A DNA stretch of 64,000 bases from Porphyromonas canoris. Lineage in GTDB: Bacteria; Bacteroidota; Bacteroidia; Bacteroidales; Porphyromonadaceae. The notes under the pieces are model-generated. The model saw only the letters and a list, made by a program, of their open reading frames with translations, had not been told where the DNA came from and did no database searches. The stretch covers positions 351,603 through 415,602 of the forward strand of contig NZ_JQZV01000013.1 in assembly GCF_000769115.1 (NCBI RefSeq), written 5' to 3'. A program made the position numbers and the translations under genes. Below, piece after piece: positions 12,074 through 49,350 of the stretch; positions within the stretch are counted from its first letter, which is position 1, and the number at the start of each line of letters is the position of its first letter.

Positions 12074-12470
12074 TTTTTATATATTCCATCCCCAAAAATG
12101 CCCTCTTTTTTCTCTCTCTCTATTTTGATCGGAAGGGTCATTTTCAGAGCACGACCGAACTGTTAAATTCGCTCCATTTTATTAACACAAATTCCGATGT
12201 TCGTTAAGCCAAAACGCTAAACGAGCATATTTTGTCGGCTTAACGTGTTTAATTTTTCAATGAACACGTTTACTGATTTCATTAAACACGTTTACCGGAT
12301 TCGATTAACGTGTTTGGGAGGAGAAAAGTTCGGAAATTCGCGATTTCTCATAACTGCTTAATATATAGTAGGATAGAGGCTTTTCTGTTCGCCGAACATG
12401 GATGACAGGACAAAATCTCTCTTTGTCGGCAGCCGGTTTCACGGACTCCATTTTTATATAAAAGCTCCCA
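12074..12470 (+). repeat. Interspersed repeat, copy A (internally deleted, 397 bp)
   Basis: It begins with TTTTTATATATTCCATCC and ends with TTTTTATATAAAAGCTCCC, the same borders as the four full-length copies. It keeps the left half, with AACGTGTT/AACACGTT sites, and the far-right fragment TTCGCGATTTCTCATA. The middle block of about 150 bp, seen in the other copies between these parts, is absent. No coding sequence, transposase or terminal inverted repeat was found. Confidence 0.85.
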
Positions 12471-15054: not shown

Positions 15055-15140
15055 CGGAGAGAAAGGGATTCGAACCCTTGATACGTTTTGCGTATACACG
15101 CTTTCCAGGCGTGCCTCTTCAGCCACTCGAGCACCTCTCC
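15055..15140 (-). tRNA. tRNA-Ser (anticodon GGA)
   Basis: On the minus strand the gene begins GGAGAGGTGCTCGAGTGG. It has anticodon loop CTGGAAA (anticodon GGA, reading UCC/UCU) and a long class II variable arm (GCGTGTATACGCAAAACGTATC region). The T-arm is GGTTCGAATCC and the acceptor 3' strand ends CTCTCC, followed by discriminator G as expected for tRNA-Ser. CCA is not encoded. Confidence 0.96.
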
Positions 15141-22745: not shown

Positions 22746-23291
22746 TTTTTATATATTCCATCCCGAAAAATGCCCACTTTTTTCTTGCTCTCTATTTTGA
22801 TCGGAGAGGTCATTTTCAGAGCACGACCGAACTGTTAAATTTGGGTTGTTTTATTAACACAAATTCCGATACTTGTTAAGCCAAAACGCTAAACAAGCAT
22901 ATTTTGTCGGCTTAACGTGTTTAATTTTTCAACGAACACGTTTAGTGATTTCATTAAACACGTTTACCGGATTCGATTAACGTGTTTAACCAAAATCGTT
23001 AAGGCTCTAATAATCAGTATTCTATCTGTTTTTGCTCTAAAAAGCACCTAAAAAGGCAGATTTCTCTATTAAGAAATATTTGCGATCGTGAGTATTAAAA
23101 TTCACACCAATTAATGCGAAAAAGCCCCATGAAATGGACTGAGAAAAATTTTTTCTCAAATTCGGGCTCATTTGTACCGATTTGTTTTGTAGTGTTTTAT
23201 GGCTAAAAGAGGAATTATTTCTGTTTTTAAGTCATCTCTGAGAGGTTCAAATCTCTATTTTGGAGTAGCTCTATTTTTATATAAAACATCC
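22746..23291 (+). repeat. Interspersed repeat, copy B (full length, 546 bp)
   Basis: Left border TTTTTATATATTCCATCC, right border TTTTTATATAAAACATCC. All internal blocks are present: the CAGAGCACGACCGAACTG block, the TTAAGCC/GGCTTAA hairpin, four ACGT-centred sites at 22915, 22938, 22960 and 22980, and the AAATTCACACC...GCCCCATGAAA block. It lies between a rightward helicase gene and the tandem array. Confidence 0.9.
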
Positions 23292-24705: not shown

Positions 24706-24841
24706 TATAGTAGTGTTCTCTTTTTTGTTCGATTGCGAAATGCCTATTCTTATTTTCAGTTGTTTCCTATGCTTTAACGGCAGAATTTTTATAAATATGG
24801 GAGAACGCGAGTCTGTTCTATGCGTGTCGGAGGATATATAA

Positions 24842-24882
24842 AAAAGAGGAACGGCGGTAAGTGAAACCACTTACCGCCGTTC
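24842..24882 (-). terminator. Terminator of the OmpA porin gene
   Basis: GAACGGCGGTAAGTG, loop AAAC, and its exact complement form a 15-bp stem. On the minus strand it is followed by CTCTTTTTT. It lies 32 bp past the porin stop. Confidence 0.93.
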
Positions 24883-33107: not shown

Positions 33108-33655
33108 GGGGATGTTTTATATAAAAACAGAGCGGTAAGATTCTCTCTCCATGCCGATGATTTTCTCTTCTGTTTTGTGTCATTCCAAATTTGTGAGCCT
33201 TTAATTTGTTTGTTATCAGACGAGTATGAGAAATCGCAAATTTGGAAAAAATTTTTTCTCAGTCCGTTTGATGGGGCTTTTTCGAGTTAATAGGTGTGAA
33301 TTTTAACGCCCATGTCTGTAAACGTTTCCTAATAAAGAAATCTTCCTTTTTAGGTGTATTTTAGGAGAAAAATGCTTAATCTTCTGATAGTTAGTGCTTT
33401 GATGGTTTTGGCTAAACACGTTAATCGAATTCGGTAAACGTGTTTAATGAAATCGGTAAACGTGTTCATTGAAAAATTAAACACGTTAAGCCGAAAGAAT
33501 ATGCTCGTTTAGCATTTTGGCTTAACGAGTATCGGAATTTGTGTTAATAAACCGGGGTAGATTTAACAGTTCGGTCGTGCTCTGAAAACGACCCCTCCGA
33601 GCAAAATAGAGAGCAGGAAAAAAGTGGGCATTTTTCGGGATGGAATATATAAAAA
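33108..33655 (-). repeat. Interspersed repeat, copy C (full length, 548 bp)
   Basis: The same element in reverse orientation: on the plus strand it starts GGGATGTTTTATATAAAAAC and ends GGGATGGAATATATAAAAA. All blocks are present and all four ACGT-centred sites are intact. It lies between gapA and the lpd operon. Confidence 0.9.
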
Positions 33656-40109: not shown

Positions 40110-40153
40110 ACAGACACTGCAACACGAAATGGTTGCGGTGTCTGTCTTTTTTT
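40110..40153 (+). terminator. Terminator of the lpd-lplA-E2-E1-fld operon
   Basis: ACAGACACTGCAAC and GTTGCGGTGTCTGT form a 14-bp stem with one wobble pair, followed directly by CTTTTTTTC. It lies 127 bp past the flavodoxin stop. Confidence 0.92.
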
Positions 40154-40207
40154 CAGACTGTTTTGCCAATATTTGGGAGACCGAAATCGGCTCTGCCGGA
40201 AGAGCCG

Positions 40208-40753
40208 TTTTTATATATTCCATCCCGAAAAATGCTCACTTTTTTTCGGCTCTCTATTTTGATCGAAGGGGGTGTTTTCAGAGGGGTGCCGAATTTGTTA
40301 AATCAGCCCATTTTATTAACACCATTTTTGATACCTGTTAAGCAAAAACGCTAAACGAGCATATTCTTTCGGCTTAACGTGTTTAATTTTTCAGTAAACA
40401 CGTTTACCGATTTCAATGAACACGTTTACCGGATTCGATTAACGTGTTTAGCCAAAATCATCAAACTGCTAAATATCAACAGATTACCTATTCCCCCAAA
40501 AAATGCCCTTGAAAAGGTGAATTTCTTTATTAGGAAATATTTACAGACAGAGGTGTTAAAATTCACACCAATTAACGCGAAAAAGCCCCATGAAACGGAC
40601 TGAGAAAAAATTTTTTCCAAATTCGCGATTTCTCATATTTGTCTGTTGTCTAATGGGTTATAAGAATAGAAAAAATTATCCGGACTGAATCGGAAGAAAA
40701 AAGTTGGCAATTGAGGGGGCAGACCGACCGGCTGTTTTTATATAAAAGTTCCC
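40208..40753 (+). repeat. Interspersed repeat, copy D (full length, 546 bp)
   Basis: Borders TTTTTATATATTCCATCC and TTTTTATATAAAAGTTCCC. The four ACGT-centred sites start at 40377, 40400, 40422 and 40442. The left block is more diverged than in copies A-C. The right end lies about 60 bp before the guaB promoter. Confidence 0.9.
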
Positions 40754-40811
40754 GCCAAATGGGTTCGAGAAGAGCCTGCTCCGGGAAGAGAGATACTCTT
40801 TTCGTCTCTCC

Positions 40812-40843
40812 TTTGGATAGCTGTACGGAAAACGTTATTTTTG
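40812..40843 (+). promoter_or_regulatory. Promoter of guaB
   Basis: TTTG (40812-40815), 20 bp, TATTTTTG (40836-40843). It is a near-ideal Bacteroidetes promoter 32 bp before the guaB ATG. Confidence 0.75.
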
Positions 40844-48802: not shown

Positions 48803-49350
48803 GGGAGCTTTTATATAAAAACGGTCGGACGATCTGCCGCCGAAATCGCTCTCTTTTTTCTTCCGATTTTGTCCGGATAATTTTCTCTATTCTTCTAATC
48901 GGCTCTATAATAGTCATATATGAGAAATCGCGAATTTGGAAAAAATTTTTTCTCAGTCCGTTTCATGGGGCTTTTTCGCGTTAATAGGTGTGAATTTTAA
49001 CGCCAACATCTGTAAACATTTTCTAATAGAGAAATCTGCTTTTTTAGGGATATTTTAAGGCGAAAATACTTAATTGGCTGATATTAAGTATTTTAGTGTT
49101 TTTGGCTAAACACTTTAATCGAATCCGGTAAACGTATTAAATGAAATCGGTAAACGTGTTCATTGAAAAATTAAACACGTTAAGCCGAAACAATATGCTC
49201 GTTTAGCGTTTTGGGTGAACAGGTATCGGAATTTGTGTTAATAAAATGACCTGAATTTAACAATTCGGTCGTGCTCTCAGAACGACACCTTTGATCCAAA
49301 TAGAGAGAGGGAAAAACGGAAGGTATCCATCGGTATGGAATATATAAAAA
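48803..49350 (-). repeat. Interspersed repeat, copy E (full length, 548 bp)
   Basis: Reverse orientation: on the plus strand it starts GGGAGCTTTTATATAAAAAC and ends GGAATATATAAAAA. The right-half block (AAATTCACACC, GCCCCATGAAA) is well kept. Two of the four ACGT-centred sites have decayed. It lies between the nuclease-helicase and the fucosidase genes. Confidence 0.9.

Follow-up and report, generated by a model that had tools for sequence, protein, structure and literature searches.

The window analysed here is a 64,000-nucleotide stretch of Porphyromonas canoris DNA within contig C5 of the genome assembly (2.197 Mb, 14 contigs, 99.9% complete). A sequence-only reading had reported five copies of an intergenic repeat in it; all five proved to lie where they had been placed and can be aligned with one another. 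The copies, the parts of copy D and a tRNA gene are listed below; orthologues are from the sister species Porphyromonas sp. MAG S15M_Sa_21.

12074-12470, + strand: copy A, a short form with about 150 bp deleted between operators and right arm; the orthologue is full-length
15055-15140, - strand: tRNA gene, the sole Rfam match of the whole window
22746-23291, + strand: copy B, full-length
33108-33655, - strand: copy C, full-length; orthologue at L150:1458-2007
40150-40207, no strand: outer left arm of copy D, with A/T waves of about 11 bp (family average) and no sequence consensus
40208-40753, + strand: copy D, full-length; orthologue at L150:8551-9101, both flanks aligned
40208-40221, + strand: left end TTTTTATATATTCC of copy D, near-universal among copies and marked by low divergence between orthologues; proposed wrap centre 1
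40374-40385, + strand: operator P1 of copy D, TTAACGTGTTTA
40395-40406, + strand: operator P2 of copy D, TAAACACGTTTA
40417-40428, + strand: operator P3 of copy D, TGAACACGTTTA
40439-40450, + strand: operator P4 of copy D, TTAACGTGTTTA
40571-40584, + strand: conserved box (A/T)ATTAACGCGAAAA of copy D, a second box given for the family as TATTAACGCGAAAA and usually 165-167 bp 5' of the right end
40648-40734, + strand: inner right arm of copy D, about 85 bp of near-fixed length with an in-phase 10.5-bp A/T wave
40735-40747, + strand: right end TTTTTATATAAAA of copy D, followed by GYTCCC and marked by low divergence between orthologues; proposed wrap centre 2
40754-40815, no strand: outer right arm of copy D, with A/T waves of about 11 bp (family average)
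48803-49350, - strand: copy E, full-length; the orthologous flanks stop at element pieces on L128 and L150

The two ends of each element are direct and not inverted repeats, as had been described, with the consensus TTTTTATATATTCCATMCCG on the left and TCCR-TTTTTATATAAAAGYTCCC on the right. The right end is palindromic in itself (TTTTATATAAAA) and the left end is not its inverse. Direct ends bear out the earlier view that the element is not an inverted-end MITE, and we rejected that class on this ground. Both ends share the core TTTTTATATA, of which the window would be expected to hold 0.12 occurrences and holds 11; ten of these occurrences are the ten element ends and the other lies alone at 24835-24844 (-). 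The bases shared before both ends (YTYYR) belong to the element consensus and are not a duplication made at each site, so they lend no support to target-site duplication. Four operators lie in the middle of each element, 21-22 bp apart, with the pattern TTAAC-NN-GTTTA (form T-N-AAC-NN-GTTTA), and across 96 copies two A's and two T's per operator never vary, or almost never do. Conservation is confined mostly to the left ~440 bp, within which positions 1-250 are the best conserved part of the element, and to the last ~20 bp; the ~85 bp between them are nearly unconserved. A hairpin-like GC stem lies 5' of some left ends, for example that of copy D.

We searched the genome with copies B and D and with both ends, which yielded 80 copies that were fetched with their flanks; an 81st, truncated on the left, was detected through its operators. 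The P. canoris genome therefore holds about 81 copies (37 per Mb). The left end has about 75 matches genome-wide at two or fewer mismatches, against 1-2 for a reversed control, and the right end has 73 against 10 for its control, so the family is neither limited to the five copies of the window nor drifting at its ends. The exact operator TTAACGTGTTTA occurs 121 times in the genome against none for the control, and all 100 of the 100 matches listed lie inside elements; from their placement the operators look dedicated to the elements. All copies are intergenic as far as seen, dispersed, present in both orientations and divisible into sub-families. At least 63 copies, counted by left ends, were found in S15M_Sa_21. 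A nucleotide search found the family to be absent from 36 other genomes of the family (10 of the same genus and 26 of a second genus). Among 84,980 species genomes, in which the P. canoris genome itself is possibly hidden, a 23-base core pattern occurred only in S15M_Sa_21 contigs, and neither this pattern nor the element was found in the viral contigs, plasmids or phages searched. At the locus of copy D, the other Porphyromonas with matches share 68-73% identity in one flanking gene but are not syntenic, which makes them unsuitable for reading empty sites. A literature search found no match to the element, and a study of P. gingivalis genomic repeats (PMC5771137) likewise gave none.

A copy is present at the matching place in P. 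canoris for 44 of 51 tested S15M_Sa_21 copies (43 directly and one, L153/L089, after checking). These copies were sampled without regard to P. canoris, but their DNA was fetched around S15M_Sa_21's own elements, so the sample is not fully random, and the assembly, a MAG, is fragmented, with contigs that end at the repeats. Because so many copies share their place, most of them predate the split of the two species, and the suggestion that the element moves as a unit found no support for recent time. The other seven S15M_Sa_21 copies were unmatched at P. canoris element loci. For five of these at least one flank was located in P. canoris, with no element or remnant, mostly at rearranged or replaced loci that are not clean empty sites. 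Since the flanks of copies found only in S15M_Sa_21 carry no element in P. canoris, the element set does turn over slowly. Several such copies (L166:13504-14057, L185:7373-7925, L187:5831-6383 and L160:985-1537) lie at rearrangement junctions. At L153:14762-16943 in S15M_Sa_21, an AAA/SMC-type ATPase-like gene lies between an element and an otherwise conserved neighbour gene.

The ends have been kept while the adjoining DNA has changed. Across 23 orthologous full-length pairs, the left core diverges by 3.1% against 41% in the next columns, and the right core by 2.2% against 52% in the right arm that precedes it. Conserved ends beside diverged DNA at orthologous loci are the mark of selection in place. 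The right arm follows the locus and not the species (orthologue identity exceeds that of non-orthologues by 0.15-0.17), and gene conversion is therefore hard to invoke for the right end that adjoins it. Over positions 58-238, orthologues are no closer than random between-species pairs, and the P. canoris copies are homogeneous. The operator centres are GT/AC almost throughout in P. canoris, and GG/CC, CT/AG and others in S15M_Sa_21. The pattern of positions 58-238 is that of either concerted evolution or a changed preference of a putative binding protein. A test for selection based on A/T-preserving substitutions in the arms had an ambiguous outcome.

The length of the element is held closely. 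Lengths were taken as net distances between landmarks, since the aligner placed too many gaps in free-end alignments for their indel counts to be used. The spacing from the start of one end to the start of the other is 526-531 bp in most full copies of both species (25 at 528, 30 at 529 and 16 at 530). From box to right end, 16 of 23 orthologous pairs show no net difference in length and the rest differ by no more than 3, at an arm divergence of about 50%, while at these loci several unaligned flank stretches differ by 20 to more than 200 bp. The earlier observation that length stays constant despite divergence is real, but the constancy is not simply a sign of youth, since it is held in orthologues that are about half-diverged in the right arm. 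Together with the direct ends and their conservation at orthologous loci, the fixed length supports the claim that the whole unit is functional. Small departures are mostly close to one helical turn or two (518, 540 and 550 against 529, and for the left spacer 34-35 or 56 bp against 45-46): in total length there are variants of -11 (three copies), +11 (five copies) and +21 (one copy), some of them orthologous pairs that count as a single event. Variants of +16 (two copies) and +26 (one copy), that is three copies of 545-555 bp, are not whole-turn changes. Five short copies, with 348-432 bp between ends (377 bp in copy A), are likewise not whole-turn variants. Internal deletions have removed DNA between the operators and the right arm, and both ends and most or all operators are retained. 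In L078, L107, L111 and L106 there are internal tandem duplications (about +83 to +101 bp), which extend the operator array in at least three of them. L051 (C1:142059-142404 of P. canoris) is a short copy that carries another left-type end, TTTTTATATATTCCATCC, in place of its right end.

The weakly conserved arms carry A/T content in a common helical phase. In the inner right arm the phase coherence across 49 copies is R = 0.81-0.84 at 10.5 bp, against 0.13 expected at random. The outer right arm has R = 0.64-0.65 at 10.5-11 bp and the outer left arm R = 0.53 at 11 bp (window -100 to -20). Outer A/T peaks lie at -45, -35, -23 and -12 on the left and at +24, +35, +46 and +56 from the right end, and S15M_Sa_21 has peaks at matching offsets. 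The inner arms carry the same wave as the outer arms. Phasing runs about 60-80 bp outside the ends and is mostly at the random level beyond about 80 bp; since phased DNA reaches this far, the functional unit probably extends beyond 547 bp, to about 650 bp with its arms. The wave at the right end is mirrored around a position close to the TTTTTATATA core (best correlation 0.77, with a centre one turn away fitting similarly), and the symmetry at the left end is weaker (0.47). A/T power over the entire element is marginal, and the clear signal appears only as phase coherence across copies in the arms; sequence information along the element has no periodicity at 10-11.5 bp. The left half (alignment positions 1-250) has an unexplained A/T period of 7.3 bp. 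Phased A/T content that is free in sequence, combined with fixed length, is the expected product of selection by a protein that would wrap or strongly bend the DNA. The outer-arm phasing could in part be a record of an old insertion-target preference.

We propose, with a probability of about 0.5, that the element is a vertically inherited, non-coding nucleoprotein site of the chromosome that would act on DNA topology. The two direct-repeat ends, 528-530 bp or about 50 helical turns apart, would each centre a complex that wraps some 120-130 bp without reading its sequence. The four near-palindromic operators, spaced two turns apart, would be bound on one face of the helix by a dedicated dimeric protein that joins or orders both wraps. 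The most likely job of such sites would be to set or hold supercoiling or loops at some 80 places along the chromosome, and the family must have spread once by copying, before the two species split.

The bending signals do not name the protein. We know of no gyrase cleavage consensus that the fixed core TTTTTATATA would represent. The most likely wrapping partner may be DNA gyrase, which is weakly suggested by a similarity in layout and dimensions between the E. coli gyrase motif and the arms of the element. That motif has a centre of about 35 bp (-16:19) between arms of about 47 bp (-63:-17 and 20:66); the G/C content of the arms is phased, which is attributed to DNA wrapping around the C-terminal domains of GyrA (PMC6379681). 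The A/T peaks of the element at about 18, 29, 41 and 52 bp from each centre match these arms, clearly on the right and more weakly on the left.

Several known systems share parts of this organisation. The matS and parS sites are dedicated sites with many copies per chromosome and almost none elsewhere, kept by selection, and are single sites of about 13-16 bp. The element likewise has many copies on the chromosome and would be a dedicated site of this kind, but it is a composite of about 650 bp. ColE1 cer has a rigid architecture with wrapped DNA of low sequence conservation, a recombinase core and one site per plasmid; the rigid layout around putatively wrapped, poorly conserved DNA is common to both, whereas the element has no recognised recombinase core and about 81 chromosomal copies. 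Strong gyrase sites include the BIME-2 repeats (PMC6379681) and the Mu SGS. The BIME-2/REP elements of E. coli, to which gyrase binds, are dispersed and intergenic like the element, and the layout around each of its ends is like that of the gyrase motif. In contrast, the element has no recognised REP palindrome; its invariant TTTTTATATA centres form pairs spaced by about 529 bp, with an array of four operators, and a gyrase role for it is putative. The BrickBuilt MITEs of P. gingivalis consist of tandem 23-nt repeats of variable number with leader, tail and inverted terminal repeats, and have 19 copies of 84-991 nt (PMC4596501). They too are intergenic, non-coding and dispersed in the same genus, with a period of 23 nt against the 21-22 bp operator spacing here, but by their description they are set apart from an element of fixed length with direct ends, four operators without a tandem array and about 81 copies.

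The element may instead be a non-autonomous transposable element that spread in an ancestor and is now fixed, with ends, operators and arms as assembly sites for a transposase or recombinase and outer arms that reflect a preference for bent targets. We hold this to be a rather unlikely but serious alternative. The family must have multiplied once, and its dispersal between genes in both orientations, its sub-families, its restriction to two sister species and the rearrangement junctions at which some S15M_Sa_21-only copies lie would all be natural for such an element. A fixed relic should decay, however, and the ends are still conserved locus by locus in copies of which most are older than the split; moreover, no inverted ends and no plasmid or phage matches were found, and target preference does not explain why the arms inside the ends are phased as well.

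A role in the transcription of neighbouring genes, as regulator operators, a promoter or insulator, or a terminator, is improbable. The intergenic position, the operator array and the stem before some left ends would fit it, but crude ORF calls place the copies between divergent (23), convergent (20) and tandem (35) genes with no orientation rule, on which ground a cis-regulatory leader was rejected. The confinement of the exact operator to elements among the matches listed also argues against it, and a unit of 650 bp with two identical centres is far larger than a terminator or operator has to be. A further reading, to which we give very little credence, is that of a structured non-coding RNA, or of a single-stranded DNA element, with base-paired stems that set its length; it would fit a length that stays fixed while the sequence diverges. 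The central dinucleotides of neighbouring operators do agree beyond shuffles in S15M_Sa_21 (P about 0.007-0.009, uncorrected for relatedness), but two operators fitted to a single protein would be expected to agree just as well. The co-varying stems that the sequence-only reading had proposed to look for were not there: the RNAalifold consensus of 96 copies has an energy of -0.74 kcal/mol, with double changes in 2 of 21 pairs. Rfam gave no match to the element at gathering score either, and RNA structure was rejected on these two results.

Returning to the nucleoprotein site, we tentatively suggest, with some doubt, that the family could represent a new class of chromosome element: some 80 composite scaffolds, each with paired wrap centres about 50 turns apart that four operators bridge, which would have been amplified in one lineage and then selected as a chromosome-wide system of topology or folding. 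Interspersed repeats of bacteria are mostly regarded as mobile debris. The wrapping of DNA under the guidance of its sequence is discussed mainly for nucleosomes and single gyrase sites. The present family indicates that interspersed non-coding repeats can be selected in place. Two species, with about 80 natural copies in each genome, allow fixed and free bases to be told apart, and length and helical phase persist even where the bases are free, which makes the set a ready source of data on how a protein reads bendability. It would also be a lineage-specific system open to deletion, footprinting or mapping.

Along the chromosome, regular spacing of the elements was not significant (CV 0.82, P = 0.14 against random). 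Contig C8 holds 5 elements where 13.0 are expected (P = 0.011), and the last 208 kb of C5, which carries dnaA at C5:957657, hold 3 against 7.7 expected (P = 0.053), in a set of contigs without a fixed order. This scarcity on C8 and near dnaA hints at a possible pattern of chromosomal domains.
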